Notes under the pieces: model-generated | The model's input: the letters and a program-made list of their open reading frames with translations, nothing else | What the model was told of the DNA's origin: nothing | Database searches by the model: none | Translations under genes and position numbers: made by a program | Origin: Balneolaceae bacterium | GTDB lineage: Bacteria; Bacteroidota; Rhodothermia; Balneolales; Balneolaceae | DNA length: 64,000 nucleotides | Assembly: GCA_006969905.1 (NCBI GenBank) | Contig: CP030887.1 | Coordinates: 2,530,730 to 2,594,729, forward strand | Direction of reading: 5' to 3' | In this document: in pieces, positions 19,028 through 45,491 of the stretch | Layout of the letters: each line of letters starts with the position of its first letter | Position numbering within the stretch: the first letter of the stretch is position 1

Positions 19028-21868
19028 GTGATAGTTTTGTCTCAATACTTCGGTTTTAAATCTTTTAAAAAATATCTGACAACTGGCTTATTTGCTCTGC
19101 TTCCCATTTTAGGTCTCAACGCTCAAAGCCCTGGCACTATAGAAGGGACTGTTCTAGACTCATTATCCGGGGAAGTTATTATTGGTGCCAATATTTTTAT
19201 TTCAGATTTAGGAAGAGGTGATGCCACAGATGTCGATGGCAAATATTCTATCAGAAGTGTCCCGGTGGGTACGTATAGGTTAACCGTTTCTTATTTAGGT
19301 TATGCTACAAAAAACATTACCGCTGAAGTTGGTTCTGGCGAGCTTCTTGTCCTTGATATAGTTTTGTCTCCGAACATTATACAAGGTGAAGAGATCACAG
19401 TGCTTGCCCAGGCTGCTGGACAGATAGCAGCCCTTAAACAGCAAATGGAGTCCAACACCATTGTTAATGTAGTTTCAAAAGAAAGATTGAACGAGCTACC
19501 CGATCAAAATGCTGCGGAATCTGTTGCCAGGTTACCAGGTGTTTCAGTTCAAAGGGATGCAGGAGAAGCTTCGAAAGTAGTTGTAAGGGGATTATCTCCC
19601 AGATTTAATTCAATTACCGTTAATGGTGTAAGGTTACCCTCAAGTGGAAATGATCGTTCAGTTGATTTGAGCTTATTGCCATCGGATGTATTAGATGGTA
19701 TTGAAGTTTTTAAAGCACTTACCCCGGATAAAGACGGTGATGCTGTTGGGGGAACGGTTAACCTTCTTGTAAAAAGAGCACCTGATGGATTCAAGAGTAC
19801 TAGTAGCATTGAAACAGGTTATAATGACATACGATCGGAATTTGGTCAGTATAAAATTCAAACTAACGGAAGTAATAGGTTTTTTAATGACAAATTAGGC
19901 ATCCTTTTATCGGGAAGTATTCAAAGAGTAAACCGCTCTTCAGAATTATTTGATGATGATGCTATTGAAGAGCAAAGTGATTCTGTTCTAATTACAGAAA
20001 ACTTAAACTTTACCGATAACCGAGAAATTAGGGATAGGTATGGACTAAGTGCCAGTATTGATTATAAGATAAATGAAGGAAATAATTTGTTTTTTTCATC
20101 GCTGTTTGGGAGAACAAATCGTGATGAAGTCAGATACAGAAAAAGGTTTAGGGTAGGTAATAATAGAACAGAGTATGATTCCAGGGATCGAGAACGATTT
20201 GAGGCTATATACACAAATTCTTTAGGGGGTCGTCACAATTGGAATTTGATAGAATTGGATTGGCAGTCTTCGTACTCATTCACATTGGGGAAAACACCAT
20301 ACTCTAATTATGCGAGATTTATAGAAAGAGGGTCCTTAGGAACTCTTTTGGATGACACTAATCCCGATAGTGTAGTTGCTGCTGCTACCGATAATCTTGA
20401 TGAGACTTTTTTCCAGTATGGAACATTTAATACGAACAGAAGAACAGAGGATGACCTCACTTTAGCTCTGAATACGAAATTGAAATTTGATCTGACAGAA
20501 AAGATTAACGGGTATTTTAAATTTGGAGGAAAGTATATAGCTAAATCCAAGTTTGTGGATGAAGATGAAATCAGAACCGACTTTGGAGTTACAGACGGGA
20601 TAGGGCGGGCCAACCCGGATGAATTCGATCTTACAGATGAAGATCAAATAGCGATCAGTAATTTTCTGAATCCTGATTATGAATCACCGGACATTAAAGG
20701 AAGGTATCAAATACCGGTAGCTTTGGATCATAAGATGTTAGCTTCTTTTTACGATCGATTCAAATCATTCTATGATCCCAATAGATTTATTGACCTAACT
20801 GATTATTCAGCATCAGAAGCTGTTTCCGCTGTATATGCAATGGGAGAACTGAACATTGGTGATAGGTTCTCAATTATACCCGGTTTTCGATATGAATATA
20901 CTGACAATTCCTATGACGGTAATTTTGGAAAACTGAGTAATAATTTAGGAAGAACAGGTATTATCTCTGATACAACGGGTGGGCAATCTTATGGAGAGTT
21001 CTTACCACAGGTACATGTCAGGATAAAAGTTCTTGAAGGCGTAGATATTCGTTTTGCGTACACTCACAGTTTATCAAGACCTAATTATAGTAATCTGGTA
21101 CCTTTTGAAAACATAAATGAAAATACACAAATTGTACTAAGAGGTAATCCAAATCTTATTCATTCAACGGCTGTTAATTACGATGCATTCCTTTCCCTGT
21201 ATAAAAACAGTATCGGATATTTTTCTGTTGGCTTTTTCTATAAAGAGCTTGAAAATATAGACTACATACTAAGGACAAGAATACAAGGAGGACAATTCGA
21301 TAGCTATCAGCTTATCTCACCTGTAAATGCAGAAGGTACTTCTACCGTAAAAGGTATGGAATTTGATCTTCAGACAGATTTTAGATTTTTGCCCAAGCCC
21401 TTAAATGGATTAATACTCTCTACAAATGTAGCTTTTATTGAATCAGAAACATTTTTCCCAATCTTACTAATTGGTGATAGAAGCCCTGATCCGCCATTTA
21501 GACCAGTTTTAATTGATACGGTTCGGTCCGGGCGGTTACCTGGCCAGCCTGATCTGACCGCAGCATTTACTATTGGCTATGAAGTAGGGCTTTTTTCAGC
21601 AAGGCTTTCGCTTTCTTACCAGCAGGCAATAATTGAAGATGTAGCAGTTACATCATTTACAGATCAACTTTCAGATGGATTTAGTTTTTGGGATTTCAGG
21701 TTAAATCAATCATTTAAAAGTCTTCCTGGGTTAACATTCTTTGTGAATATGAATAATGTTACGAGTGAGAGTGAACGCGAATTTCTAGGATCGGGTGATG
21801 ATTCCAGAAACACAAGAGACTTCAGTTATGGCTTCACAGCAAGTACAGGGGTGAAATTTAAATTTTAA
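19028..21868 (+). CDS. TonB-dependent receptor with carboxypeptidase-regulatory-like domain
   Basis: 946 aa. GTG start preceded by AAAGGAAAAAGGATCG. Signal peptide to about residue 33 (FALLPILGLNAQS). Residues ~36-115 are a CarboxypepD_reg-like beta-sandwich (IEGTVLDSLSGEVIIGANIF, DVDGKYSIRSVPVGTYRLTV). The plug domain (~135-250) has LPDQNAAESVARLPGVSV and VVRGLSPRFNSITVNG, and the rest is the outer-membrane beta-barrel ending in FTASTGVKFKF. It should import oligosaccharides across the outer membrane at the expense of TonB/ExbBD. No SusD gene follows; the partner position is taken by the beta-helix protein at 21912. It is the first gene of the glycan operon, behind two candidate operators. 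Confidence 0.9.
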   Translation: MIVLSQYFGFKSFKKYLTTGLFALLPILGLNAQSPGTIEGTVLDSLSGEVIIGANIFISDLGRGDATDVDGKYSIRSVPVGTYRLTVSYLGYATKNITAEVGSGELLVLDIVLSPNIIQGEEITVLAQAAGQIAALKQQMESNTIVNVVSKERLNELPDQNAAESVARLPGVSVQRDAGEASKVVVRGLSPRFNSITVNGVRLPSSGNDRSVDLSLLPSDVLDGIEVFKALTPDKDGDAVGGTVNLLVKRAPDGFKSTSSIETGYNDIRSEFGQYKIQTNGSNRFFNDKLGILLSGSIQRVNRSSELFDDDAIEEQSDSVLITENLNFTDNREIRDRYGLSASIDYKINEGNNLFFSSLFGRTNRDEVRYRKRFRVGNNRTEYDSRDRERFEAIYTNSLGGRHNWNLIELDWQSSYSFTLGKTPYSNYARFIERGSLGTLLDDTNPDSVVAAATDNLDETFFQYGTFNTNRRTEDDLTLALNTKLKFDLTEKINGYFKFGGKYIAKSKFVDEDEIRTDFGVTDGIGRANPDEFDLTDEDQIAISNFLNPDYESPDIKGRYQIPVALDHKMLASFYDRFKSFYDPNRFIDLTDYSASEAVSAVYAMGELNIGDRFSIIPGFRYEYTDNSYDGNFGKLSNNLGRTGIISDTTGGQSYGEFLPQVHVRIKVLEGVDIRFAYTHSLSRPNYSNLVPFENINENTQIVLRGNPNLIHSTAVNYDAFLSLYKNSIGYFSVGFFYKELENIDYILRTRIQGGQFDSYQLISPVNAEGTSTVKGMEFDLQTDFRFLPKPLNGLILSTNVAFIESETFFPILLIGDRSPDPPFRPVLIDTVRSGRLPGQPDLTAAFTIGYEVGLFSARLSLSYQQAIIEDVAVTSFTDQLSDGFSFWDFRLNQSFKSLPGLTFFVNMNNVTSESEREFLGSGDDSRNTRDFSYGFTASTGVKFKF

Positions 21869-21911
21869 TAATCCACATTTGATAAAAATGTGATAACCAA
21901 AACAAAAAAAC

Positions 21912-23465
21912 ATGGAAATAAAAAAAGATACAAAGCACAAAGTAGGTAAAACTGTACAATGCTTTAGCGTTTTCTTGTTGCTTGCATTTATTGCGACAAC
22001 TAGCATTAACGCGCAAAGAACAGTTATGGTAGAGGAAGGTGTAGGAACACTTAATGACGCAATATCCAGTGATACTACTGCAACAGGAGAAAGAGTAGAT
22101 TCAAGTACTGTTTATGTATTGTCGAGCGGAGGAACATACTTGTTGGATGGAAGCATTCAACACAGAGACTTTCATCTAACTATAGTTGCGGAAGATGACG
22201 CTGCCGAAAAGCCTATGTTAATCCCAGCTGTTGATAATGGCGGAGAATCATCCCGTGCATTTCGTCCTAGGGGTAGCTTAACCTTAAAGGGCCTATATGT
22301 TACTAATGAGGATGAACTGGGTGGAGTAAATGACAGGATTATTCGAATTAGTTCGGATGATGTTACTATCAGTATTGATGATACTCATCTGGACAAGTCC
22401 AGTCAGTCAGCTTTTAGGGTTGATGGTGAAAATGTAAATATCTTTTTGACTAATTCTACTGTTAGTAACATTGGATTTACAAGTAGCCCGGATAATGGTC
22501 GGGGTGTAGATGACAGAGGTAATGATATTGATACTCTTTGGCTCGAAAATAATACTTTTTATAATCTAACAAGTCAGGTACTAAGAGATGATGGTGGTAT
22601 CATTAAGTATGCCTATATAAACCAGAATACCATGGTAAATATTGGTAAGAATGGAGCAGTAGAATTTGGATCGGTTGTAGAAGCGCACTTCACCAACAAT
22701 ATGGTATACAATGGCTCTTTTTATGGATATGACAACGATGATGATCCAATTGCTGTGGTAAGCCTGGATTCATTATCAGAAAATGATATTTCAGAATTCG
22801 GAGCTCAAAGCTTTACACTAAACAATAATAATTTCTATACATCGCCAGATGTTGTAAGTGCATATCCTGATACGGTAGAACAGGCAGTTACCTATAATGC
22901 AACAGTGCAGGCATATGTAACAGAGCAGGGAAGTGCACCTACTAATCTAAATGAAGCTGTTGTATTTACTGATGGACCTGCACAACCTGCAAATGTTGTT
23001 ACTGCTTTTTGGGCACTATCAGAAGACCCACCTTCCTTCCCAACAGCTGGTGAGCCATTTGATTTTGGGTACGCAGGGACATTCTCTTCCAGCACTGGTG
23101 GTGATGAAGGCCAGCAAATTGGTTCATTATTCTGGCATGGTGGAATTTTCATTAGTAATGAAGATGAAAGTTTAGCGGATACTCCAACTGCATTTCAGTT
23201 GAAAGGAAATTACCCGAATCCATTTAACCCATCTACCAACATTGCATTTGATCTTAATGAGCCTTCAGAAGTAAGTGTGGATGTGTACAGCATAGTGGGT
23301 CAAAAAGTGATGACTATACCTGCTCAGCGAATGAGTGCAGGGCAAAATCAAAGCATTTTGCTCGATGCATCCGGTCTTGCATCCGGTATTTATATTTACA
23401 GGGTTACTGCAAGAACTGCCAGTAATGTTATGGTGAATACCGGTAGAATGACACTTATTAAATAA
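21912..23465 (+). CDS. Secreted beta-helix protein with C-terminal (T9SS-type) sorting domain
   Basis: 517 aa. Signal peptide to about residue 34 (CFSVFLLLAFIATTSINA). Residues ~40-330 show the short repeating beta-strands of a right-handed parallel beta-helix (VNIFLTNSTVSNIGFTS, IDTLWLENNTFYNL, IKYAYINQNTMVNIG, VEAHFTNNMVYNG), as in chondroitinase-B/pectate-lyase-like folds. I see no convincing catalytic Lys/Arg pair. Residues ~430-517 carry the sorting module NYPNPFNPSTNIAFDL ending in GIYIYRVTA and a basic tail. The protein is probably displayed on the cell surface and binds or cuts the glycan before uptake by the receptor 43 bp upstream. It could replace SusD functionally; that is inference. 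Confidence 0.84.
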   Translation: MEIKKDTKHKVGKTVQCFSVFLLLAFIATTSINAQRTVMVEEGVGTLNDAISSDTTATGERVDSSTVYVLSSGGTYLLDGSIQHRDFHLTIVAEDDAAEKPMLIPAVDNGGESSRAFRPRGSLTLKGLYVTNEDELGGVNDRIIRISSDDVTISIDDTHLDKSSQSAFRVDGENVNIFLTNSTVSNIGFTSSPDNGRGVDDRGNDIDTLWLENNTFYNLTSQVLRDDGGIIKYAYINQNTMVNIGKNGAVEFGSVVEAHFTNNMVYNGSFYGYDNDDDPIAVVSLDSLSENDISEFGAQSFTLNNNNFYTSPDVVSAYPDTVEQAVTYNATVQAYVTEQGSAPTNLNEAVVFTDGPAQPANVVTAFWALSEDPPSFPTAGEPFDFGYAGTFSSSTGGDEGQQIGSLFWHGGIFISNEDESLADTPTAFQLKGNYPNPFNPSTNIAFDLNEPSEVSVDVYSIVGQKVMTIPAQRMSAGQNQSILLDASGLASGIYIYRVTARTASNVMVNTGRMTLIK

Positions 23466-23488
23466 GTTTTTAAAGCATAACACCAATT

Positions 23489-23519
23489 GGAGAACCGGTG
23501 AAACGGTTCTCCTTTTTTT
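23489..23519 (+). terminator. Strong intrinsic terminator within the glycan arm
   Basis: GGAGAACCG / CGGTTCTCC, a perfect 9-bp stem with a GTGAAA loop, followed by seven T residues. It lies between the beta-helix gene and the first GH2 gene, so surface-protein transcripts can be made in excess over the enzyme genes. Confidence 0.9.
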
Positions 23520-23539: not shown

Positions 23540-25345
23540 GTGAAGTTTTTATATCGCTACTCTTTTTTCCTGCTACTCAGTGTTTTATTCATTCAAAGCT
23601 CTCAAGCTCAATACAATAGCCTTGTTGAGAACATTTATGACAGGGAAAGAATAGACCTAAATGGTACATGGAAATTCTTGTTAGACCCTATGGAAACAGG
23701 GATTATAAAGAGAAAGTACCGGAGAGATTTTCCGGCTGATGAAGTTGCTAAACTAAATGAAGGCCCTCTGATTGAATATGAGTGGGACTCATCATGGGAT
23801 ATACAAGTCCCGGGAGACTGGAACAGCCAATACAAAGAACTGGAATGGTATGAAGGTTTAGCCTGGTACCGGAAAAAGTTTGAGGCTAAAAAGGAAACAG
23901 GCTTTAGATACTTCCTGTATTTCGAAGCAGTCAATTATAAAAGTGATGTATATCTGAATGGCGAAAAACTGGGGATGCACGAAGGAGGCTTCACACCTTT
24001 TCAGTTTGAAATTACCGACAAAATAAAGTCCGTAAACTCATTAGTACTCTCGGTAGATAATAAAAGAGTAACCGATGGTATTCCCGCTGCCGATTTTGAC
24101 TGGTGGAATTACGGAGGCATTACCAGGCCGGTCTGGGTAATTAAAGTACCCAATGAGTTTATCGAAGAATACACTTTTGAATATGATGGGGAAAAAATAA
24201 ACGGAAGTGTTGTCCTAAACTCAGCTTCTACAGGGAAAAAGAAAATTAGGATTGAAATCCCGGAGCTTAGGATCAAGGAAACTGTTGAAACAGATAAAAA
24301 TGGTTATGCGGAGTTCGTATTCTCTCCCCAAAAAATAACTACATGGTCGCCAACGAACCCTAAACGTTATGAAGTATCAGTTTCTACGAGTAATGATAAA
24401 GTCTCCGAGTTAATTGGTTTCAGAACCATCGAAACCAAAGAAACAGAAATACTTTTAAACGGAGAGTCTGTTTTTCTTCGAGGCATTTGCTTGCATGAAG
24501 AAGCCATTGGCAAACCTACACGCACATTAAACTGGGAAACGGCTGAAGAGTTATTGCTTTCAGCTAAAGGAATGAATGCTAATTTCGTAAGACTGGCTCA
24601 TTATCCCCATACTGAAAAAATGACTCGTCTTGCTGATAGCTTGGGGTTAATGGTATGGAGTGAAATTCCTGTGTACTGGGAAGACATGGATTATAAAAAC
24701 CCTAAAACCCTTGCACTAGGGAAGCAGATGATAACTACCAATTATAAAAGAGATAAGAACCGTGCATCTATCATAATCTGGAGTATCGCTAATGAAACCC
24801 CAATTACAGATCATAGAAATGCCTTTCTGAAAGAATTGATTACAACGGTTCGCGAGAATGATCAAACACGACTGGTTTCAGCGGCTCTTAAAGTCTCTCA
24901 TGATGGTGGGGTTAAAAACATTGACGATCCACTAGGTAAATATCTTGATGTACTTTCGATAAACCAGTATGTGGGCTGGTACGGCAATGATTATCCGGAT
25001 AAAATTACAGATGTGGAGTGGGAATCGAACTACAACAAGCCGATGCTTTTAAGTGAATTCGGAGCAGGAGCACTTGCAGGAAATTATGGCGATAGAATGA
25101 CCCGCTGGACTGAAGAATTCCAGGCATATTTCATAGATGAAACCATGAAGATGGGAACATCTATTCCATTCTTAAGAGGAACAATGCCGTGGGTACTCAA
25201 AGATTTCCGAACGCCGAGAAGATATCACGGAGCATTTCAAAACTACTGGAACCGAAAAGGGTTTATAGATGAGAATGGCGTTCATAAACAAGCATACGAT
25301 GTGCTCAAAAACTGGTATATAAAAATAGAGGACGAGGCTAATTGA
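23540..25345 (+). CDS. Exported GH2 beta-glucuronidase
   Basis: 601 aa with a signal peptide (FFLLLSVLFIQSSQAQ), GTG start. GH2 layout: N-terminal sugar-binding jelly roll (~30-200, GDWNSQYKELEWYEGLAWYR), immunoglobulin-like domain (~200-300) and (beta/alpha)8 barrel. The acid/base is Glu419 in IIIWSIANETP and the nucleophile Glu506 in MLLSEFGAGAL. Asn571-Arg-Lys573 (NYWNRKG) matches the N-x-K motif that binds the uronate carboxylate in beta-glucuronidases and is missing from beta-galactosidases. It should release glucuronic acid from oligosaccharide ends outside the cytoplasm. Its stop is 1 bp from the next ATG, implying translational coupling. Confidence 0.87.
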   Translation: MKFLYRYSFFLLLSVLFIQSSQAQYNSLVENIYDRERIDLNGTWKFLLDPMETGIIKRKYRRDFPADEVAKLNEGPLIEYEWDSSWDIQVPGDWNSQYKELEWYEGLAWYRKKFEAKKETGFRYFLYFEAVNYKSDVYLNGEKLGMHEGGFTPFQFEITDKIKSVNSLVLSVDNKRVTDGIPAADFDWWNYGGITRPVWVIKVPNEFIEEYTFEYDGEKINGSVVLNSASTGKKKIRIEIPELRIKETVETDKNGYAEFVFSPQKITTWSPTNPKRYEVSVSTSNDKVSELIGFRTIETKETEILLNGESVFLRGICLHEEAIGKPTRTLNWETAEELLLSAKGMNANFVRLAHYPHTEKMTRLADSLGLMVWSEIPVYWEDMDYKNPKTLALGKQMITTNYKRDKNRASIIIWSIANETPITDHRNAFLKELITTVRENDQTRLVSAALKVSHDGGVKNIDDPLGKYLDVLSINQYVGWYGNDYPDKITDVEWESNYNKPMLLSEFGAGALAGNYGDRMTRWTEEFQAYFIDETMKMGTSIPFLRGTMPWVLKDFRTPRRYHGAFQNYWNRKGFIDENGVHKQAYDVLKNWYIKIEDEAN

Positions 25346-25346: not shown

Positions 25347-27884
25347 ATGAGCATATTAATGCTGTTTTTTGGTTTTATAGTATTCAGTTGTGCGGGTGTA
25401 CAGCAAGAGCCTATTCAGTTCACAGCCAAGCCGTATTACTTTGATGCCGGTGGAAGTGATTCAGAATTACATCAAAATTCAATTTTGCTGACACCTGATT
25501 TTACATACTCTGAAGGAAGGGGATATGGCTGGACAACACCAGGGCACAAAGAGTTTTATAATGAAGGAGCTGAAGATGCACGAAACAGCTTTCTTGTTGA
25601 TGGTATTGTAGCCAAAGAAATAAGCTTTAAAGCGGATGTTCCGGAAGGTGAATGGTGGCTGGCCATTTGGTTTGAATCGGGAATGGAAGATTCTAGTACT
25701 ACACAGCTTTTCATCAATAATGAAAATGCAAATTTAGAAGTGCAGTCGTTTACACCGCCAGCAGAACCCAGGGATAATATCCAAAAGATTTACCGGGTGA
25801 TTCAGAGAAGAGTCAGCGTTTCAGACAAGGGTCTGGCATTTTCAATGAAAGGAGTTGAAGATGATGTTTACTTGCTTGGCATTTCATTGATTCCAAATGC
25901 AACTGAGTTCGTTGATGAGAAAACCTCATCCATTCTGAAACACATTGAAAAATTAGGTAATTACAAAAGCACGGACGATTTTCAACCGGTAATTGATCGG
26001 TTAAAAGAAATAAGAACTGACAAAAAGCATCGGAACTTTGCAGCTTACTGGATCCAGCAATTAGAGATTATTCGTGATTCAGAAATGTATTTTGATTATC
26101 GAGGCTGGGGTTGGGCTACTGATAAGACGGGACTGGGGCTATTTGGACATCTTCATCAGTCGGTAATGCTATATGATGGTGTTTTGAACTTTGAAAATGT
26201 CGAAGAATCTCCTCTTTATGAGCGGGCACTTTGGTATCGGGGGAGAGTACTTTACTGGCTACACCTGGAAAGAGGTATTTATGCTGAGCTCAATGGGGCA
26301 AAAAGGGATTTAGCAAAAATGTATAAGCTTCATCCCACTGATGAGCTTGTCCGGATGTATAACGGAGAACAGATTGACACCCCTGATGAATTTGATAACA
26401 TAACAAAACCTGCCAACGCACCGCAATGGGCATTCTCACAATGGGAGCTCACAAATCGCCTCAAAAAAGTAGTTGATTGGTGGGTGAATGAACAGCAATC
26501 AGAAAACGGGGAGTTTGGTGGTAAATTCGGAGATGATGTCGAGATTTTACGGTGGTGGTCACCATTAATCCTGTCAGGTGATGAAACGACTTATAAAGGT
26601 TGGAAAAAACTTGCTGATGGAGTTTGGAACAGTAATAAGGTAAAAAACGGGTATGCGAAAAAGCCGAGTGATGTAGAGCATTCTTCTGAATTTATCTCTG
26701 ATACTGCACCATTGCTGGTGTTGTTTAATGACGACCCAAAATATGCTGAAAGACTGGCTTATTCTGCAGATTATTTTCAAAATTTATGGACGGGATATAA
26801 CGATAATGGAAATAGGTTTTTCAAGTCTGCATGGTTCAGTTCTTCCGAAATCGAAACAGAAGAGCCTAAAAACAGGGATGTAATTTATAATGGCAGGGCA
26901 GTAAAAGCAGTCCGGTATTATGCATGGAAGACCGGGGATACACCTACTAAGAAAGCTTTAATTGAATGGGCTGATTCCTGGTACAAAGTTTCACAGGAAA
27001 CGAGTAAAGGCAAACCCGTTGGTATCATTCCTCCTTCTGTAGAGTTTCCAACAGAAAATATTAATGGTGATGAACCAACATGGCATGAAGCGAATATGTA
27101 CTGGTCATATTTTGACTGGAGGGATGGGAAAGCGATTCTGGATCAACTTTTATATACCTGGACATTTACTGCTGATGATAAATACCTGAAGCCTATTTTC
27201 CAGAGCCTTGAACTTGTTCGAAAATATGCTTCGGACATTGATAAGCCTCAAAGCCCTCACGCAATAGGTTCCGAAGGATGGGCTGCCCACAGGCTGGGTA
27301 ACAGAAGCGGGTTTTGGAATGTTGTAGAAACATGGAGAACACTTACAGGGGATGATTCTTACGATGATTTGATACTCAAATATGGAACCCCATACACCCG
27401 CTATCGCATCACTAAAGATGAACAGCACTTAGTAGATGCTTTAGAGCCTTATCTGGAAACTGTACGCTATAACGAACCGATGCGGAGCAGCGAAGCCATA
27501 CATACCGATCGTGTCTTCATTAAAGGAATGAATACTCGTGAAGCTACTATCCTGCTAGGAATGATCACGGGTTTTGCAATTGAAGAAAGCGCGTCTCCCT
27601 ACATCGCAACATCATGGGAAAATACAAGTCGTGATCTGACTTATTTGGTATCAAATAATGACTCTACTAGTCTGGATGTAAAGCTGTATAACTTTGCAGA
27701 TGAACGTGAATCAGCTATAATGAGAGTTTGGCAATTGAGATCAGGAGAGTATACGCTCACCAAAAAAGTAGATGGGAAAGAAGAAAAAAAACAAATCACG
27801 GTAAAGAAGGGTGGAGATCGATTTAAAATTTACACAGAGCCTAAAAAGCTTATCGAAATATCCATTCAACCCACAAATAAATAA
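25347..27884 (+). CDS. Unclassified lipoprotein with a beta-domain and alpha-helical toroid; candidate polysaccharide lyase or hydrolase
   Basis: 845 aa. A lipoprotein signal ends at about Cys15 (FIVFSCAG). Residues ~25-180 look like a galactose-binding/malectin-like sandwich (FDAGGS, then SEGRGYGWTT, and GEWWLAIWFESG), as found N-terminal to pectin-active enzymes. Residues ~200-780 are aromatic-rich and helical (YFDYRGWGWATDKTGLGLFG, EANMYWSYFDWRDGKAIL, GSEGWAAHRLGNRSGFWNVV), the look of an alpha/alpha toroid as in PL8, PL12 or GH88-type enzymes. A small beta-domain ends the protein. I recognise no named family. The locus contains a GH105 enzyme and the 4-deoxy-ketouronate pathway but no known lyase, so this protein is the best candidate to make the unsaturated ends. 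Candidate general acid/base residues cannot be fixed by eye. Confidence 0.72.
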   Translation: MSILMLFFGFIVFSCAGVQQEPIQFTAKPYYFDAGGSDSELHQNSILLTPDFTYSEGRGYGWTTPGHKEFYNEGAEDARNSFLVDGIVAKEISFKADVPEGEWWLAIWFESGMEDSSTTQLFINNENANLEVQSFTPPAEPRDNIQKIYRVIQRRVSVSDKGLAFSMKGVEDDVYLLGISLIPNATEFVDEKTSSILKHIEKLGNYKSTDDFQPVIDRLKEIRTDKKHRNFAAYWIQQLEIIRDSEMYFDYRGWGWATDKTGLGLFGHLHQSVMLYDGVLNFENVEESPLYERALWYRGRVLYWLHLERGIYAELNGAKRDLAKMYKLHPTDELVRMYNGEQIDTPDEFDNITKPANAPQWAFSQWELTNRLKKVVDWWVNEQQSENGEFGGKFGDDVEILRWWSPLILSGDETTYKGWKKLADGVWNSNKVKNGYAKKPSDVEHSSEFISDTAPLLVLFNDDPKYAERLAYSADYFQNLWTGYNDNGNRFFKSAWFSSSEIETEEPKNRDVIYNGRAVKAVRYYAWKTGDTPTKKALIEWADSWYKVSQETSKGKPVGIIPPSVEFPTENINGDEPTWHEANMYWSYFDWRDGKAILDQLLYTWTFTADDKYLKPIFQSLELVRKYASDIDKPQSPHAIGSEGWAAHRLGNRSGFWNVVETWRTLTGDDSYDDLILKYGTPYTRYRITKDEQHLVDALEPYLETVRYNEPMRSSEAIHTDRVFIKGMNTREATILLGMITGFAIEESASPYIATSWENTSRDLTYLVSNNDSTSLDVKLYNFADERESAIMRVWQLRSGEYTLTKKVDGKEEKKQITVKKGGDRFKIYTEPKKLIEISIQPTNK

Positions 27885-27896: not shown

Positions 27897-29150
27897 ATGA
27901 GCGATACAAATTCGTTAAGTTGGTTCAAGAAATTTCAACTATTCATTTTATCCATTGGGCCGGGACTTTTTATAATCGGGTACAACATTGGAACGGGTAG
28001 TGTAACTTCAATGGCATCAACCGGTGCGGAATACGGGATGATGCTTACTCTACCTTTACTACTGTCCTGTATTTTTACCTATATCCTTATTGTTGTTTTT
28101 GGAAAGTATACCATTGTAACCGGGGATACGGTTATCCACAGCTATAAGCGGCATTTTGGAAAGCCTGTGGGCTTGTTCGTTTTGATTGCTTTGATATTTA
28201 CAGAAGCAGTAGGAAGTGTAGGGGTGATGGCCATTGTTACTCAGGTTACCCAGGAATGGACCCGGCCATTAACCAGTTCCGGGAACGGGATCGATCCTTT
28301 GTATTCCACTATAGCCTATGGTGCGATTTTGTATACCCTGCTTTGGAATGGGAAGCAGAATTTTTTCGAAAAAGTACTTGCCTTCTTTGTTGGGGTAATG
28401 GGTGTCAGCTTTTTGGTAACCATGGTAATGGTTATACCGGAGCCTTCTGAAGTGATTGCAGGCATTGTATCGGGTATACCAAACGAGTCAGGAGCTTTTT
28501 TACTTGTGGCAAGTATGGTGGGTACTACGATGGGGGCTGTAATTTATGTGGTCAGGTCCGTGCTGATAAAAGGAAAAGGCTGGGGCCTGGAGCAATTGAA
28601 CCTGGAAAAAAGGGATGCTAAAGTTTCAGCAATTGTGATGTTTGTTTTGAGTATTTCAGTTATGGCTGCAGCTGCCGGTACATTATACCAACAAGGCCTT
28701 AAAGTTGATAATGCCATAGATATGGTGAAGCTACTGGAACCTTTTGCAGGCCGTTTTGCGCTTTCTATTTTTGTAGGTGGTATCCTGGCAGCAGGGCTCT
28801 CATCTCTTTTCCCACATATCATGTTGGCACCTATACTGCTTGCAGATTATAAAGGTGAAAACCCAAATTTCAAATCTACTACTAATCGGTTGATCTCGCT
28901 CAGTATTATCCTTTTAACGCTCGTGGTACCACTTTTTGGTGGACGACCTGTTTTTATCATGATCATGTCTCAGGCGTTTATTGCGGTAATTACACCGGTT
29001 GTCATTTTCCTGATGATGATTCTTATGAACAGAAAGGACTTAGTAGGCAAACACAGCTTATCCCCGATGAAAAACATTTTGGTTGGGAGTATAGTCATCT
29101 TTTCAGTGATAATGGCTGTGCTTGGGTTGATCGGAATTTTCTCAATTTAA
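27897..29150 (+). CDS. NRAMP-fold transporter lacking the DPGN and MPH metal motifs
   Basis: 417 aa, about 11 membrane segments. Alignment by eye to NRAMP proteins is clear in TM1 (LSIGPGLFIIGYNIGTGS for the family's GPGL..GYMDPGNW) and TM6 (VGTTMGAVIYVVRSVLIKG for GATVMPHVIYLHSSL). The metal-binding Asp and Asn of DPGN and the Met-Pro-His of TM6 are all replaced, so Mn/Fe transport by the known mechanism is unlikely. It is encoded between an orphan enzyme and a cytoplasmic beta-glucuronidase (12 and 28 bp gaps), which suggests that it moves a sugar, uronate or oligosaccharide across the inner membrane. The family call is firm; the substrate is inference. Confidence 0.78.
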   Translation: MSDTNSLSWFKKFQLFILSIGPGLFIIGYNIGTGSVTSMASTGAEYGMMLTLPLLLSCIFTYILIVVFGKYTIVTGDTVIHSYKRHFGKPVGLFVLIALIFTEAVGSVGVMAIVTQVTQEWTRPLTSSGNGIDPLYSTIAYGAILYTLLWNGKQNFFEKVLAFFVGVMGVSFLVTMVMVIPEPSEVIAGIVSGIPNESGAFLLVASMVGTTMGAVIYVVRSVLIKGKGWGLEQLNLEKRDAKVSAIVMFVLSISVMAAAAGTLYQQGLKVDNAIDMVKLLEPFAGRFALSIFVGGILAAGLSSLFPHIMLAPILLADYKGENPNFKSTTNRLISLSIILLTLVVPLFGGRPVFIMIMSQAFIAVITPVVIFLMMILMNRKDLVGKHSLSPMKNILVGSIVIFSVIMAVLGLIGIFSI

Positions 29151-29178
29151 AGTCAAAAACTAACTATAAGAGCTATTA

Positions 29179-31026
29179 ATGCTTTACCCACAACAAAATA
29201 ACTACAGAGCAACTTTTGACCTTTCAGGATACTGGAGATTTAAAGCAGACCCTAAACAGCAAGGCCATGCAGAAAAATGGTATGCAAAGAAACTGGATGG
29301 AGATGCACATTCTATTGCAATTCCGGGTTCGTGGAATGAGCAGCTAACAGAACAAGGATTAAGGAACTTTGTCGGAAAAGCATGGCACGAAACCACATTT
29401 AAAATTCCGGGTGTTGTTCAGGAAAACAACAGAATATGGATACGTATTGCAGCAGCTGATCATGCTGCTGAAGTCTGGCTAAATGGAAATTATGTGGGAG
29501 ATCATTATGGTGGTTATATGCCATTTGGATTTGAACTTACTGAGTTCCTGAATAAACCTGGAGAAGAAAACCATCTTTCTGTTTGCGTGGATAGCACATT
29601 AACCATGCATACTCTTCCCCAGGATGTTGATCCTGAATCCGAGCAGTACAATACCCCGGGCTACGAGCGGAGGCATTTGTTTCCGGCTACCCGTTTTGAT
29701 TTTTTTCCGTATGGAGGGTTGACCAGGTCCGTAAATATTGTAGCAACACCGAAAGAATATATTTCGGATATAAAAATTGAATCAACCCTGGATGGAAAAG
29801 TAAGGGTAGGTGTTTCTTCATCAATAGATAAAGAAATTACAGTACAGATTTTGGATGCTGAAGGAGTTGAGGTTGGCTCTGGCAATTCAGCAGGTGCTAC
29901 GGTAGAACTTAAGATTGATCATCCAAAGCTTTGGGGTCCCTCACAACCCTACTTATATATAGCGAGGGTATCTCTTAAAGATGGAGATGCTATTCTGGAT
30001 CAATATGATGAAGATTTTGGGATCCGCGAGATTAAAGTGGAGGGAGGTAAAGTGCTTTTTAATAACGAACCGTTGTTCATGAGTGGTTTTGGAAAGCACG
30101 AAGACTTTCCAATTGTAGGCCGGGGGCAATTTCGCCCTGCTTACCTTCGGGATTATGAATTAATGCGCTGGATTGGGGCAAACTCTTATCGCACCAGCCA
30201 TTACCCATACGATGAAGAAATGATGCGTCTAGCTGATAGAATGGGTTTTTTAGTGATCGACGAAGTCGCTGCGGTAAGCTTAGGGTTTTGGTCAAACGAT
30301 TTTGATGACTTAAAACCTTTGCTTGATAATCATAAAAAAGCCATCAAGGAATTGTACGAACGGGATAAGAACCATCCTTCCGTAATCTCATGGTCAATAA
30401 CCAATGAGCCGAATCTTTGGGCAGAAGAATATTATCAGAATGAGGCAAGCAGCAGGTATTTCAAAGAGGTTTACGAATACACCAAATCCCTGGATAGTTC
30501 CCGCCCGGTAATGTCTATTTCTATGGCGGCGCATAAAGAGAATGATGTGGTTCTGGAATCCTGCGATGTAATAGGTATCAACCGTTACTATGGCTGGTAT
30601 ACCAAACCTGTTGATTTAGAGCAGGCTGGAAAAGACCTGGGGGATGAGCTGGACCGGACGTTTAAAAAGTATGGTAAGCCGATAATGATTACTGAATTTG
30701 GAGCCGATACTGTAGAAGGGATGCATTCTACCACAGCCCAAATGTTTACCGAGGAGTTTCAAACAGCATTTACACTGAAATACCTGGAAGTAATGACAGC
30801 CCGTGATTTTGTATTTGGATCACACGTGTGGAATTTTGCTGATTTCATGACCCCTCAACATTTCAGACGGGTTATTCTTAACAAGAAAGGTGTATTCACA
30901 AGGGACAGAAATCCAAAAAGTGTGGCATTTAAACTCCGTGAATACTGGCATGATTTAGATAAGATTTCAGACGAACACCGTCCCAAAAAGTCGAAGCCGG
31001 GATTTTTAGTCCAAGATGTAAAATGA
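29179..31026 (+). CDS. uidA: Cytoplasmic GH2 beta-glucuronidase (GusA-like)
   Basis: 615 aa without a signal peptide. N-terminal jelly roll (FDLSGYWRFK, IPGSWNEQ), Ig-like domain and TIM barrel as in E. coli GusA. Acid/base Glu410 in SWSITNEPN; nucleophile Glu506 in IMITEFGADTVEGMH; the family phrase INRYYGWY; and Asn568-Lys-Lys570 in LNKKGVFTRDRNPKS, the N-x-K uronate clamp. It should hydrolyse imported beta-glucuronides to glucuronic acid for the mannonate/KDG route. Together with the exported GH2 at 23540 it gives two glucuronidases in different compartments. Confidence 0.9.
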   Translation: MLYPQQNNYRATFDLSGYWRFKADPKQQGHAEKWYAKKLDGDAHSIAIPGSWNEQLTEQGLRNFVGKAWHETTFKIPGVVQENNRIWIRIAAADHAAEVWLNGNYVGDHYGGYMPFGFELTEFLNKPGEENHLSVCVDSTLTMHTLPQDVDPESEQYNTPGYERRHLFPATRFDFFPYGGLTRSVNIVATPKEYISDIKIESTLDGKVRVGVSSSIDKEITVQILDAEGVEVGSGNSAGATVELKIDHPKLWGPSQPYLYIARVSLKDGDAILDQYDEDFGIREIKVEGGKVLFNNEPLFMSGFGKHEDFPIVGRGQFRPAYLRDYELMRWIGANSYRTSHYPYDEEMMRLADRMGFLVIDEVAAVSLGFWSNDFDDLKPLLDNHKKAIKELYERDKNHPSVISWSITNEPNLWAEEYYQNEASSRYFKEVYEYTKSLDSSRPVMSISMAAHKENDVVLESCDVIGINRYYGWYTKPVDLEQAGKDLGDELDRTFKKYGKPIMITEFGADTVEGMHSTTAQMFTEEFQTAFTLKYLEVMTARDFVFGSHVWNFADFMTPQHFRRVILNKKGVFTRDRNPKSVAFKLREYWHDLDKISDEHRPKKSKPGFLVQDVK

Positions 31027-31047
31027 TTTTTCACTCAGGAGTTTTAG

Positions 31048-31956
31048 ATGGAAATTATGATACATGAGAGAATTACATGTTGTTATCTACATACCATTAC
31101 TAAGTACGGATATCCACCTGCCGCCAAAGGTACATTGGAATACCTGGATGAGTATAAAAGTATGGGCTTTCAATCGGTTGAGTTAGAAGGGATTCGCAAA
31201 GATCACTTACTGGAAGTATATGAGATGCGAGACTCTATAAAGCAAAAGGTAAAAGAGCTGGAGCTTAATGTACCTTATTTTTGTGTAGTGTTGCCCGGAC
31301 TATCATCGGCAGATGAGGAAGAACGAGAACAAAATCTAGAGCTCTTTAATAAGGGATGTGAAATTGCATCGGGCTTAGGATCTAAGGGGGTATTGGATAA
31401 TGCTCCATTACCACCGTACCGGTTTCCCGAAGATATTCCTGTTGTGAGGCATTATCATGAAGAAGTTATTCTGTCCGCAAAATTTCCAGATAACCTGAAT
31501 TGGAATAACTATTGGGAGCAGCTTACTTCCGCGTACAGGCGAGCATGTGATATTGCTGCCGTTTTTGGGCTCACTTACCAGATGCATCCCGCCTTAGGTG
31601 TTCTGGCTTCTACCACAGATGCTTTCCTTTATTTTCATGATGCCATTGGACGAGATAATCTTCGGTTCAATTTTGATACCGCAAACCAGTATTTCCTCAA
31701 AGACAATCTCCAGCTTTCACTAAGAAGATTAGCTGACTATATCGATTATATTCATATCTCAGATAACAGGGGAAGCCGGGTAGAACACCTTGCCATAGGT
31801 GATGGTGAAATTCGTTGGGATGATTTTTTTGAAACGGTGGACATGATTGGTTTTAAGGGTCATTTCGGAATTGATATCGGAGGAGCCGAATCAGGGGTAG
31901 AAAACCTTGATGATGCTTATGTAAAAGCCGCAGAATTTATAACTCAAAAACTGTAG
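31048..31956 (+). CDS. TIM-barrel sugar isomerase/epimerase family protein
   Basis: 302 aa, preceded by CAGGAG eight bases before the ATG. It is an AP_endonuc_2/xylose-isomerase-like TIM barrel: GFQSVELEGI (Glu on strand 2), YQMHPALGVLA, NFDTANQYF (Asp/Asn metal-site strand), YIHISDNRGS and LAIGDGEIRWDDFF. Such proteins isomerise or epimerise ketoses and keto-sugars using a divalent metal, and many in PULs are uncharacterised. Placed between a beta-glucuronidase and a hexosaminidase, it probably acts on a released monosaccharide; uronate isomerisation would fill a gap in this locus but is only a guess. Confidence 0.78.
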   Translation: MEIMIHERITCCYLHTITKYGYPPAAKGTLEYLDEYKSMGFQSVELEGIRKDHLLEVYEMRDSIKQKVKELELNVPYFCVVLPGLSSADEEEREQNLELFNKGCEIASGLGSKGVLDNAPLPPYRFPEDIPVVRHYHEEVILSAKFPDNLNWNNYWEQLTSAYRRACDIAAVFGLTYQMHPALGVLASTTDAFLYFHDAIGRDNLRFNFDTANQYFLKDNLQLSLRRLADYIDYIHISDNRGSRVEHLAIGDGEIRWDDFFETVDMIGFKGHFGIDIGGAESGVENLDDAYVKAAEFITQKL

Positions 31957-31961
31957 TTGGA

Positions 31962-34538
31962 ATGAAATCTACAAAATCTATTACCTCAGGTTTATTTTTA
32001 CTGTTCGCATTCTCAGTATTGGCTTATGCGCAAGATCGGAAACTGTTCTTGGTACCCAACCCTCAGCAAATTGAATTCGCCGAAGGGGCATTTCCCTTTG
32101 ATGATGAGTTTTCCGTGCACTTATATCTGGATGATGAGAAAGAAGAAGAATTCATATTTAATCAAATCCAGGATGAGCTCAGGATTATTTTTGGTAAGGA
32201 TTACCAATTAAAGGAGAAAGGTTCACCCCGTGAAATAGTAGTAGGGGTTAAGGGGGCTTCAAAAAGAATTGACCGGCTTATTAAAAGTGAAAACCTTAAT
32301 GTTTCTGAAGAATTAGGTAAAGAAGGATATGTATTAAAAGCTACTGATAAGCACATAGTGATAGTTGCTAATACAGTTCGGGGTGCTTTTTATGGAGTGC
32401 AGACACTAAAACAACTTATAAGAACCCATAGAGATAAAAAGCGAATTCCCGGGTTAACTATCAGGGATTGGCCCGATTTGGAAATCCGTGCAATGATGGA
32501 TGACATAAGCCGGGGCCCTGTTCCCACAAAAGCATATATGCGACAGCAGATCGAGCGCCTGTCTGAAATGAAGATCAATATGCTAACTTATTACACAGAA
32601 CATGTTGTGAAAACAAAAAGCCATCCTGCATTTGCTCCCGAAGGAGGGTCTTTAGATATAGAGGAATGGGCAGAATTAGCAGATTATGCAAAAAAATATC
32701 ATATTGATCTTGTAGGGAATTTTCAGTCATTTGGACATTTCAGTGAAATATTGAAGCATCCGGAGTACGCTCATTTAGGTGAGAGCGGGATGCTTTTATC
32801 ACCGGCTTTTGAAGAGAGTTATGAACTTCTCGAAGATATTTATTCTGAGATGATCCCCGCCTTCCATTCTGATTATTTTCATATCAACTCAGATGAGACT
32901 TTTGACCTGGGGACAGGAGCATCCAAAGCCATGGTGGATAGTTTAGGCAAAGCCGTTGTTTATGCAAATCATATTAAGAGGCTACATAAGATTGTCACAG
33001 GTTTGGGCAAAAAGATGTTTATGTGGGGAGACATTGTATTGGAGAACCCTGAAATACTAGACATGCTTCCCAAAGATATTATACAGGTTACCTGGGGCTA
33101 TGACATTATGGATGATTATGCCCCGAGAATCACTCCTTTTATGGAGAAAGACTTTAAACTGTTGGTATCCACAGCAGTCCTGAACTCGTTTGCCATTATG
33201 CCTGATTTTAATGTTTCGCTTGGGAACATTGGTGGTTTCATGGCTGAAACAGTTAAACAAGGTGCCTGGGGAATGTTGAACACCGTTTGGGATGACGAAG
33301 GATTCGCTCTGTTCTCAAGGGATTGGTATGGAGTTTCTTACGCAGCAGATCAATCTTGGAATAGTGCGCCTGAGGATGAAAGCTACCATGCCAGGTTTAA
33401 TCGTGCATTATATGGTGCAACAAATGATGGTTTATCAGAAGCTATTTCTACACTTAATGAACTGGCTAAGCTCAAATCCACAGAAAAGATGAATGAAGGA
33501 ATCCTATGGGATAAAGTAATACCTGAGAAAGGTAAGAGCGTTTTAATGAATATCCAGGACTGGCCCAAAGTGATGAAGCTTGCCAATAAAGCTCAAATGG
33601 AGTTAAACAAATATGATCCGCTAAAGCATAAACTGGATGTTCGATACATCCAGCAGGTTATTGACTTATATAAATATATGGCATCAAGCAGGCCCGGTTT
33701 AATACATGCAGCCCAGTATTACAGGGAGGCGAAAGCGACTGAGATTGATAATAAGATCAAAGCAAGGAAGAACTTAGTAAAAGCCTATGATTTGATTTCT
33801 GAAAACTTCAGCGAGTTAACCAGGTTAAGAGCCGAAAATCAAACTTTGTGGATTAAAGAAAACCGGGTGCATGCACTTGATCATATAATTGGCAAGTACG
33901 ATCAACAGCTGAGTGCTTTAGAAGAGGTCAAAGAACTTCTTTTGAGTACAATATTTGAATTTGATAAAGGAAATCCATTGCCTGATATATCCGAAATTCG
34001 ATTAGATATCCGGGAATCTGAAGGATGGTACTTTCAGGGATGGTTGATGATAAATCCCATTCCTAATGAAGGCGGTTTCGAAGATCCGGGAATGGATCAC
34101 CTCGAGGATATGCAGGGTATTGAAAATACATTTCCCAAAGTGACCCAGGAATTTTACTTCGATAATGTGAAATACCGGTGGAGGCGGGTAAACACCCCAT
34201 ACTTTGCAAAAGTAGACCTGGATGAGATTCATGAAGAAAGCGAAAATGTTGTGATGTACTCGTTTGCTCATATCGACATTGAAGAAGATCGCGAAGTAAG
34301 GGCACTTGCAGGGAGCAGTGATGGGATTGAAGTATTTGTGAATGGTAAACAGGTTCACAAGAACTATGTAGAGCGGGAGTTCAAGCTGGACGAAGATGAG
34401 ATGATACTACCGCTAAAGGCCGGGCGAAATCATTTGATGATAAAGGTTACGAATAAAGAAGGGGACTGGGCATTTAGTTTCAGGTTACCGGATTCTGAAA
34501 TGAGAAGTTACAAAAACAGGTACAAGATCATCAAGTAA
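31962..34538 (+). CDS. Exported GH20-like beta-N-acetylhexosaminidase with C-terminal extension
   Basis: 858 aa with signal peptide (GLFLLFAFSVLAYAQ). Residues ~25-145 are the GH20b-like domain that ends in IVANTVRGAFYGVQTLKQL. The catalytic barrel (~155-480) has the substrate-assisted pair Asp311-Glu312 in HINSDETFDLGTG. Beyond ~500 are helices and, from ~660, a beta-rich domain with EVFVNGKQVHKNYVE resembling a sugar-binding jelly roll. It should remove terminal N-acetylhexosamine residues in the periplasm. The Asp-Glu pair supports a true GH20, but the barrel is divergent elsewhere (for example TYYTEHVVKTK), so a related activity is possible. The next gene overlaps its stop by one base. 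Confidence 0.8.
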   Translation: MKSTKSITSGLFLLFAFSVLAYAQDRKLFLVPNPQQIEFAEGAFPFDDEFSVHLYLDDEKEEEFIFNQIQDELRIIFGKDYQLKEKGSPREIVVGVKGASKRIDRLIKSENLNVSEELGKEGYVLKATDKHIVIVANTVRGAFYGVQTLKQLIRTHRDKKRIPGLTIRDWPDLEIRAMMDDISRGPVPTKAYMRQQIERLSEMKINMLTYYTEHVVKTKSHPAFAPEGGSLDIEEWAELADYAKKYHIDLVGNFQSFGHFSEILKHPEYAHLGESGMLLSPAFEESYELLEDIYSEMIPAFHSDYFHINSDETFDLGTGASKAMVDSLGKAVVYANHIKRLHKIVTGLGKKMFMWGDIVLENPEILDMLPKDIIQVTWGYDIMDDYAPRITPFMEKDFKLLVSTAVLNSFAIMPDFNVSLGNIGGFMAETVKQGAWGMLNTVWDDEGFALFSRDWYGVSYAADQSWNSAPEDESYHARFNRALYGATNDGLSEAISTLNELAKLKSTEKMNEGILWDKVIPEKGKSVLMNIQDWPKVMKLANKAQMELNKYDPLKHKLDVRYIQQVIDLYKYMASSRPGLIHAAQYYREAKATEIDNKIKARKNLVKAYDLISENFSELTRLRAENQTLWIKENRVHALDHIIGKYDQQLSALEEVKELLLSTIFEFDKGNPLPDISEIRLDIRESEGWYFQGWLMINPIPNEGGFEDPGMDHLEDMQGIENTFPKVTQEFYFDNVKYRWRRVNTPYFAKVDLDEIHEESENVVMYSFAHIDIEEDREVRALAGSSDGIEVFVNGKQVHKNYVEREFKLDEDEMILPLKAGRNHLMIKVTNKEGDWAFSFRLPDSEMRSYKNRYKIIK

Positions 34539-35299
34539 TGAGATCAATTTTTCAACATAAAGCTGGTAAACTTGATGTTTCCATTTACGCAGACAGAGAT
34601 GTATTGGGATTAGCTGCTGCGCACTATGTAAGAAGGAGGATTAAAAGGGTTCTTGAAGAAAAGGATGAAGTCCGGATAGTTTTTGCTGCTGCTGCCTCTC
34701 AAAGGGAATTCCTTACAGAACTCTTGAATCTCGTTGATATTCCCTGGAATAAGGTAGTTGCATTTCAAATGGATGAATACCATATGTTGCCTAAATCAGC
34801 TCCCCAGAGGTTTGGGAATTTCTTAGATAAGCTTCTTTACCGGTTCAGAGATTTTAAAGCGATTCATTTCATGGGTGAGGATATCGAGATTTATGAGCAG
34901 CTTATTAATGAAGCACCTATTGATATTGTTTGTATGGGAATCGGAGAAAACGGACACCTTGCATTCAATGACCCTCCCGTAGCAGATTTTGATGATCCTG
35001 AAACTATTAAAGAGGTGGAACTGGATGAGGTATGCAGGCAGCAACAGGTCAATGACGGGGAATTTGCACGTATAGATGACGTTCCCAAACGAGCTGTTAC
35101 ATTGACTATCCCTGCACTTCTAAGCGCTACTTATCTTTCGGTTGTAGTTCCGGCATCCGCAAAAGCAGATGCGGTTGAGCAAACTCTGTTTGGTGAAATT
35201 TCTACCAAGTGCCCGGCAACTATTTTAAGGACACATCCTGATGCAAAACTGTTTTTAGATATAGATTCTTCAAAAAACATCATGGAGAAGTTCAAATGA
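34538..35299 (+). CDS. Glucosamine-6-phosphate deaminase/isomerase family protein (NagB-like)
   Basis: 253 aa, cytoplasmic. NagB-type Rossmann domain: FAAAASQREFLTELL (phosphate loop), VVAFQMDEYHML (catalytic Asp of the family) and GIGENGHLAFNDPP. In E. coli NagB the last motif is GVGNDGHIAFNEP; here the Asp is Asn and the Glu is Asp, so catalysis may differ from canonical deamination. The expected step is glucosamine-6-phosphate to fructose-6-phosphate, using hexosamine freed by the upstream GH20. No NagA deacetylase or dedicated kinase is encoded in the locus. ATGA-type overlap with GH20 and a 4-bp overlap with the next gene indicate tight coupling. Confidence 0.8.
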   Translation: MRSIFQHKAGKLDVSIYADRDVLGLAAAHYVRRRIKRVLEEKDEVRIVFAAAASQREFLTELLNLVDIPWNKVVAFQMDEYHMLPKSAPQRFGNFLDKLLYRFRDFKAIHFMGEDIEIYEQLINEAPIDIVCMGIGENGHLAFNDPPVADFDDPETIKEVELDEVCRQQQVNDGEFARIDDVPKRAVTLTIPALLSATYLSVVVPASAKADAVEQTLFGEISTKCPATILRTHPDAKLFLDIDSSKNIMEKFK

Positions 35300-36123
35300 G
35301 TAATATTAATTCAAAATTGAGGGAATCTTATTCATTAACACAAGATGATATCAGGTATTATCAAAAGAACGGTTTTATTAAACTCAAACAGGTTCTTGAT
35401 GAGGAAACACTTGCTTACTTCAACGAAGAGATCACAAAAGTAGTAATAGAGAAAAATCCTCTTTTAGGAAAACCTATTGAAGAACGAAATGTTTTTGAGC
35501 AGGCATTTATACAAATCGGTAATCTCTGGCGCACAAATGATCTTATAAAAAAACTGGTGTTAAGCGAGCGACTTGGAAAAATTGCTGCCGATTTGATGCA
35601 GGTTGAAGGAGTCAGGCTATACCATGACCAGGCATTGTATAAAGAGCCTGGCAAAAAAGTAAAGAATATCACTCCCTGGCATGCTGATCAGTATTATTGG
35701 CCTTTGGATACCGATAATACTATTACGGCCTGGATTCCCCTTCAGAAAACAACCCCGGAAATGGGTCCTCTTGCTTTTAGCATGGAAAGCCAGAAGCATG
35801 ATTTTGGACGTGATCTCGAAATAAGTGATGAAAGTGAAGCCAAAATTCAAAAAGCTCTTTCTGATGCTAACTTGGAATTAGTAGACGAAGGTTTTGATGC
35901 AGGGGAAATTAGTTTTCACGGAGGCTGGACATTCCACCGTGCCAGCGCCAATGTCTCAAATAAAGTCCGGGCTGTGATGACCATTATTTATATGGAAGAT
36001 GGCATAAGGTTAAGTGAGTTTAAGAACGAAGCTCACCCAAATGACAGAGATGCTTTTTTGCCGGGTCTTGAACCCGGTGATATCGCACAAACTGAACTCA
36101 ACCCACTTATTTACAAACGATAA
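35296..36123 (+). CDS. Phytanoyl-CoA dioxygenase (PhyH) family protein
   Basis: 275 aa, no signal. Fe(II)/2-oxoglutarate dioxygenase of the PhyH family: the N-terminal YYQKNGFIKLKQVLDEETL, iron ligands His129 and Asp131 in TPWHADQYYW, and the distal His214 with a following Arg in FHRASANVSNKVRAVM. All three iron ligands are present, so it should be active. It overlaps the NagB-like gene by 4 bp. PhyH proteins hydroxylate varied small molecules; here a modified sugar or a methyl/acyl group on the glycan is the most economical idea, without direct evidence. Confidence 0.82.
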   Translation: MSNINSKLRESYSLTQDDIRYYQKNGFIKLKQVLDEETLAYFNEEITKVVIEKNPLLGKPIEERNVFEQAFIQIGNLWRTNDLIKKLVLSERLGKIAADLMQVEGVRLYHDQALYKEPGKKVKNITPWHADQYYWPLDTDNTITAWIPLQKTTPEMGPLAFSMESQKHDFGRDLEISDESEAKIQKALSDANLELVDEGFDAGEISFHGGWTFHRASANVSNKVRAVMTIIYMEDGIRLSEFKNEAHPNDRDAFLPGLEPGDIAQTELNPLIYKR

Positions 36124-36146
36124 ATACTTTTAAAAGAGTAACAATT

Positions 36147-37931: not shown

Positions 37932-37992
37932 TTGATCAGGTCTTGTTAAGTTGGAAGCCGTACTATTAGAATAACTTGTAGCTAAAATAATC

Positions 37993-41176: not shown

Positions 41177-41202
41177 TTGAAAATTTTAGTGAAAAAAAGC
41201 CG

Positions 41203-41229
41203 TATACCCAATATACCTAATAATCCTAA
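41203..41229. promoter_or_regulatory. Candidate operator: three 9-bp units, regulator gene
   Basis: TATACCCAA, TATACCTAA and TAATCCTAA in tandem, 27 bp before the regulator start and after the stop of the DUF1961 gene. This is the most regular of the three copies and shows the 9-bp period most clearly. Autoregulation is inferred. Confidence 0.62.
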
Positions 41230-41262
41230 TTTTTGCTAATAATTGAATCATTAAGTTTTGGC

Positions 41263-42027: not shown

Positions 42028-42040
42028 GTATAAAGGCTAG

Positions 42041-43075: not shown

Positions 43076-43080
43076 GATAT

Positions 43081-43731: not shown

Positions 43732-43739
43732 TATTTATC

Positions 43740-45487: not shown

Positions 45488-45491
45488 AAAT

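Follow-up and report, generated by a model that had tools for sequence, protein, structure and literature searches.

A TonB-dependent receptor and a T9SS-tagged beta-helix protein form a recurrent gene pair with a possible SusCD-like role in Bacteroidota

A receptor, a beta-helix protein and a terminator

We analyzed a 64,000-nucleotide window from the genome of a Balneolaceae bacterium (assembly GCA_006969905.1, contig CP030887.1), which is a single contig of 3.49 Mb. The gene at 19028..21868 on the plus strand starts with GTG and encodes a 946-aa TonB-dependent receptor with an N-terminal CarbopepD_reg_2 extension (PF13715, 71.7 bits), a plug, and a barrel. The NCBIfam profile TIGR01782 (TonB-Xanth-Caul) places the receptor in that class, at 383.9 bits against a cut-off of 310. 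It scored 62.8 bits against the SusC/RagA model TIGR04056 (cut-off 368.25), and this match covers N-terminal residues 37-190 alone.

After a gap of 43 bases, the same strand carries a gene (21912..23465) for a 517-aa right-handed beta-helix protein. The N terminus looks like a signal peptide by eye (residues ~1-34) and is followed by the beta-helix (~37-310), caps to ~410, and a T9SS type A sorting domain (~434-517) that begins with NYPNPFNP. This tag scored 39.8 bits with PF18962 (cut-off 27) and 37.2 bits with TIGR04183 (cut-off 23), so that the protein resembles known type A cargo in having both a signal peptide and a sorting domain above the two curated cut-offs. The host genome has 47 further tag sites, which resemble the window protein in the C-terminal part only. 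The tag was its only match above cut-off in Pfam and NCBIfam, and a sequence search of the PDB likewise returned the tag only. The T9SS translocon protein SprA is present in the host genome (1464 bits). Among named organisms, Balneola sp. EhC07 gave the closest match to the beta-helix protein, with 72% identity over aligned residues 1-517.

The pair is closed by an intrinsic terminator on the plus strand (23489..23519), a hairpin with a 9-pair stem and a 6-base loop (23489-23512) and then seven T, the run ending at 23519. Its folding energy is -17.3 kcal/mol (z -3.8), and none of 200 shuffles did as well. We thus confirmed the order of receptor, beta-helix gene, and terminator, including the strong terminator described in the initial annotation.

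The sequence GAAAGCGCTTCT at 18990-19001, a few tens of bases 5' of the receptor start, is similar to a LacI-type operator. Loose matches to this operator type numbered 20 in the window versus 8.9 expected. The candidate was dropped; with a stricter script, one of 10 other receptors had such a site upstream, and the site in the window itself was missed.

The surrounding locus

Genes for the breakdown of uronate-containing sugars lie behind the pair. The first, on the plus strand at 23540..25345, encodes a GH2 exo-uronidase-like glycosidase of the beta-galacturonidase/glucuronidase class, whose best solved relative is the GH2 beta-galacturonidase AqGalA (PDB 7vqm, E 4.6e-164). Farther along the same strand (27897..39732) is a co-oriented cluster encoding an Nramp-like transporter, a second GH2 enzyme, an AP_endonuc_2 TIM barrel, a GH20-like protein, a glucosamine-6-phosphate isomerase-like protein, PhyH, GH88, and an SSF symporter. 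Uronate catabolism genes occupy 40034..51680 and include a GntR/LacI-type regulator, DUF1961, a KDG kinase-like PfkB protein, KDPG aldolase, KduI, an SDR, DUF4861, TRAP DctM/DctP, another SDR, and UxuA; the regulator, KDG/KDPG enzymes, KduI, TRAP transporter, and UxuA are on the strand opposite to the glycoside hydrolase cluster. The locus is for a uronic-acid-containing glycan; which glycan exactly is a matter of interpretation.

Between the first GH2 gene and the cluster lies a plus-strand gene (25347..27884) for an 845-aa protein of unassigned family. It had no match in Pfam or NCBIfam and nothing convincing in a PDB sequence search. It is 57-58% identical across six orthologous loci among those that we fetched, and in close orthologous loci its gene is the first or second behind the pair. 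Based on this conservation, the protein may represent a new family of uronate-glycan enzymes. Its structural model was poor (pLDDT 63.9) and helical in the middle. The core was too poor for its fold to be identified, and only the N-terminal part matched known folds, those of CBM35 and malectin (Z up to 14).

Recurrence of the pair

A survey for recurrent pairing had been set beforehand as a test of the initial annotation. We searched with residues 32-410 of the beta-helix protein, leaving out the tag, and found matches in 45 of the 394 genomes sampled from the phylum, representing 31 of 170 genera, and in 17 of 92 genomes of the family. The distribution is patchy even in the window's own genus (2 of 8 genomes). 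With a profile built from 42 bodies, the phylum count rose at E 1e-20 to 50 of the 394 genomes, belonging to 35 of the 170 genera.

We fetched 60 beta-helix loci, two of which start at a contig edge, leaving 58 with readable upstream sequence. A TonB receptor lies directly upstream in 56 of these 58, whereas among the 436 other genes of the loci a single one has a receptor there, which rules out pairing by chance; the pair does recur. The median gap between the two genes is 57 bases, and TIGR01782 matched all 45 aligned receptors. The two exceptions are L220 and L222. A script identified 52 of the 56 receptors, and four were added on inspection (L192, L194, L197, and L212). A spurious 90-aa ORF intervenes in L194, and a long antisense ORF masks the receptor in L197 and L212. 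In L192, two IS-like ORFs split off the end of the receptor, leaving a remnant that scores 124 bits with the receptor profile. By eye this ORF pair (L192:7366-8540) resembles an IS3-type transposase inserted in the 3' end of the receptor gene, and the last 123 codons precede an intact beta-helix gene.

The reverse search used the receptor as a query in 89 genomes of the family and gave 46 matches at E 1e-80; 30 of these were taken further as loci, of which 27 were readable downstream. The beta-helix gene is next in 17 of the 27. Among receptors scoring at least 355 bits it is next in all 15 loci examined, compared with 2 of 12 for weaker receptors; by eye, the genes behind several of the latter resemble phytases or phosphatases.

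As a hold-out, we examined 20 of the weakest, most divergent profile matches, none of them used before. A receptor lies directly upstream in 12 (in L337 with an overlapping small ORF), one ORF intervenes in 2 (L327 and L341), and no adjacent receptor was found in 6 (L325, L329, L330, L333, L335, and L340). The link to a receptor is therefore tight among core members of the family and weaker among the most divergent ones, some of which work without an adjacent receptor. The PNP motif of the tag occurs near the C terminus in 19 of these 20, and all 56 aligned family members carry a T9SS tag. Eight of the 56 also contain CBM35, an established carbohydrate-binding module. Neighbors of the pairs include GH88, GH2, GH130, sulfatase, UxaC, SusE, and alginate lyase genes. 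Our search of the open-access literature, which excluded subscription papers, turned up no recognizable description of the pair.

Terminator-like hairpins also recur. Of 54 beta-helix genes whose next gene has the same orientation, 20 have one within 80 bases downstream. The corresponding figure for other genes is 12 of 364 (Fisher p 3.8e-12, an optimistic value since loci of related genomes are not independent), and none of 55 pairs has one between its two genes. This excess supports the suggestion in the initial annotation that the pair forms a unit of its own, separated from the genes behind it, probably at the level of transcription.

Co-diversification of the body and the receptor

Distance matrices of the beta-helix bodies and their receptors are strongly correlated (51 pairs, the window's plus 50 others; Mantel r 0.91, p 2e-4, 5000 permutations). 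The correlation between tag and receptor over all 51 pairs is 0.36. In the 1192 comparisons with body identity below 40%, r was 0.72 for body and receptor and 0.03 for tag and receptor. On the other side, nearest neighbors outside the genome agree for body and receptor in only 24 of 51 cases (15 of 51 for the tag). The tag is a weak control because it is short and nearly saturated. When partners were swapped between paralogues of one genome, the cognate combination fit better in 16 of 17 swaps, which counters shared species history as the sole cause. Joint inheritance of linked genes can still yield such a signal without physical contact.

These data bear on whether the beta-helix protein acts in adhesion or as part of a surface matrix, being co-regulated with the receptor but not directly involved in uptake. 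In favor of this are the often adhesive nature of T9SS cargo, the 47 further tag sites of the host genome, and the six hold-out members that lack an adjacent receptor. A generic adhesin, however, would not need to co-diversify with a receptor within single genomes or to be tied to one receptor clade. We therefore give the adhesin explanation very little credence.

Fold and relationship to PL6 lyases

We modeled the beta-helix protein with AlphaFold2 from 56 sequences, obtaining a mean pLDDT of 90.3. The best solved fold match was the PL6 alginate lyase BcAlyPL6 (7dmk; Z 32.9, 2.2 A over 294 residues), and it falls in residues 426-747 of that chain. The next matches (7o77 and 7o7t, Z 25; 8bwk, Z 24.7) are likewise to C-terminal halves. 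PL6 chains of single-domain length (7o84, 6qps, and 7o79) scored Z 17-18, as did many other beta-helices. A Foldseek search with the model gave nothing at E <=0.001, the list being filled by the Ig-like sorting domain; the PL6 match came from the VIA comparison. The right-handed beta-helix, at first a guess from sequence, is now supported by the model and the closest solved folds. Together with the tag profiles, they bear out the initial description of a beta-helix protein with an NYPNPFNP sorting domain.

Sequence profiles point to the same part of the PL6 enzymes. The body profile matched C-terminal parts of PL6 proteins in L260 (residues 506-726, 51.9 bits), L267 (50.6), and L257 (33.5), and with lower scores in L255 (27.7), L249 (21.3), and L252 (15.3), compared with at most 3.3 bits for the N-terminal part of these six. 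No domain of the remaining PL6 proteins, out of 29, exceeded 8.7 bits. Four of the six proteins with full-length PF14592 (L250, L251, L253, and L254) gave no useful C-terminal match, so the sequence homology is clear for only part of PL6. The window protein thus resembles, in fold and by profile match, the C-terminal domain of two-domain PL6 alginate lyases, a group that includes BcAlyPL6, Patl3640, and AlyGC; unlike these lyases, it stands alone without a catalytic domain, has a signal peptide and a T9SS tag, and is linked to a receptor.

The PF14592 catalytic domain was not found in the window protein at E 0.1 or anywhere in the host genome. All 16 aligned PL6 catalytic domains keep K251, R272, H273, E244, and E246. 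E244 and E246 are presumably the calcium-binding glutamates. Lys, Arg, and His are given as PL6 active-site residues in PMC6879350. No such conserved set occurs in the 56 family members, where the best column reaches 48% for Lys, 70% for Arg, and 82% for His. Conservation is highest at positions occupied for the most part by Asn, Tyr, and Gly, which recalls the asparagine ladder that PMC6879350 describes for alginate-acting beta-helices. Membership in PL6 as a plain lyase was rejected based on these three results: no PF14592, homology to a noncatalytic domain, and no catalytic set. The objection that the protein is a plain PL6-like lyase is weakened, because its homology is to the noncatalytic C-terminal domain of those enzymes.

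A surface lyase or hydrolase could still use another site on the beta-helix, with the receptor merely importing its products. Most solved proteins among the fold matches are lyases, hydrolases, or epimerases, and many of the pairs adjoin glycoside hydrolases. In addition, Q165, R169, N195, R197, D200, R202, D207, and R225 are invariant in the 15 closer members, and the Gln, Arg, and Asp residues among them could form an active site of another kind. The NGR-DxRG-DTL cluster that the window protein carries is absent from the aligned PL6 C-terminal domains and is therefore specific to the family. The column conservation across the 56 members and the C-terminal position of the matched PL6 domain, the catalytic N-terminal domain lacking a convincing profile match, argue against an enzyme, and we consider this explanation unlikely.

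DUF4957 relatives and SusD

DUF4957 (PF16318) was found in 2 of 56 family members at E 0.01 and not in the window protein. Four of the PL6 proteins above match it in their C-terminal part, and stand-alone proteins of ~530 aa match it too. DUF4957/DUF5123 proteins of Bacteroides-type utilization loci are similar in size to the family and end in GDPRW, compared with GDLNWFP in the family consensus. In a listing in PMC10434189, B. thetaiotaomicron BT1025-26 appears as a receptor and a DUF4957 protein, consistent with the link between DUF4957 and the beta-helix.

Four of the stand-alone DUF4957 proteins (L279, L280, L281, and L288) are encoded directly behind SusD, the classic third place, and by eye are lipoprotein-like, two features in which they differ from the window protein. 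As distant relatives, they suggest a role as an accessory glycan binder of the SusE/SusF (SGBP) type, the receptor working alone and the beta-helix protein raising efficiency only; SusE is also among the downstream neighbors of the pair in 3 of 84 cases. The window beta-helix gene, however, comes directly second after the receptor. Furthermore, PF07980 SusD was found in 26 of 50 carriers and in none of the other 24, and in the latter the beta-helix protein cannot be an add-on to a SusCD pair. An accessory role is fairly unlikely by this reasoning.

The initial annotation had proposed a substitute for SusD in lineages without SusD. The 24 carriers without PF07980 agree with this, but the other 26 do not, and the host itself is ruled out as such a lineage by four PF07980 proteins above the Pfam cut-off, each directly behind a receptor other than the window's. 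At the pairs themselves SusD is rare: of the 60 loci, one (L212) has it within about 9 kb.

Among 29 plug matches in the host genome, the next gene was examined for 27; by Pfam these include four SusDs and two T9SS-tagged partners, the window beta-helix protein and a 971-aa protein. The latter (PF18962, no other family) follows a second receptor with a weaker TIGR01782 match (L244:3118-6030) and is possibly another type of partner. Directly behind the host's other TIGR01782 receptor is a gene for a purple-acid-phosphatase-like metallophosphoesterase fused to Polysacc_lyase (PF14099; L227:677-2740). Four receptors of another class are each followed by a repeated cassette, at host genome positions ~3127005, 2058256, 1712478, and 2026331 (L237, L240, L246, and L248), in which a 700-1280 aa protein with a sorting-tag-like end precedes a ~340 aa protein. 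The tag-like end had no Pfam match in the three that we scanned.

Discussion

The pair resembles SusCD in that a receptor gene is followed by one for a surface protein, each receptor with one partner, among genes of glycan degradation, and also in the CarbopepD_reg_2 extension of the receptor. It differs in that the receptor is of the TIGR01782 rather than the TIGR04056 class, and the partner is a beta-helix with a T9SS tag and no lipobox (by eye), whereas SusD is alpha-helical. Two defining features of SusCD were tested, a PF07980 partner and a TIGR04056 receptor, and neither was found; the pair is therefore not SusCD.

We lean slightly toward the view that the pair nevertheless works like SusCD, with a T9SS-exported beta-helix like the C-terminal domain of PL6 in the place of SusD. 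The two genes would then form one surface uptake unit. Its signal peptide would take the beta-helix protein across the inner membrane, and the type IX system, reading the C-terminal tag, would carry it on across the outer one. At the surface it would catch glycan for its receptor, as the SusD lipoprotein does for SusC, and the TonB-powered receptor would import an oligosaccharide freed from a uronate-rich glycan. This model is based directly on the anatomy of the genes, their recurrence and co-diversification, the tag, the fold and homology of the beta-helix, loci from which SusD is absent, and the lack of a conserved catalytic set. From these we infer that the beta-helix protein binds glycan, contacts the receptor, and stays at the surface, and also what the substrate is. 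T9SS cargo may instead be released. The capture role proposed in the initial annotation gains from the recurrence, sugar-gene setting, co-diversification, and hairpin; its premise of a SusD-free host did not survive.

The beta-helix body and the noncatalytic C-terminal beta-helix of PL6 enzymes would, on this model, descend from one domain family. A wider version, which we offer tentatively as a possibility, is that this is a second, independent solution of the SusCD kind. An accessory beta-helix of PL6 type would have evolved into a lid or capture protein that reaches the surface by T9SS and not as a lipoprotein. It would have co-evolved across Bacteroidota with a single clade of TonB receptors, and would replace SusD altogether in about half of the carriers.

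Because the pair recurs in many Bacteroidota without a SusD partner, it may represent a second mode of sugar capture at the surface of the cell. Polysaccharide utilization loci are usually sought by way of a SusC-SusD pair, so SusD-free loci of this type would be missed. A TIGR01782 receptor followed by a T9SS-tagged beta-helix would be a simple marker with which to predict glycan uptake loci in genomes that lack SusD. If the model holds, the C-terminal domain of PL6 enzymes, whose role has been described as unknown, would be a glycan-handling module of the same kind.
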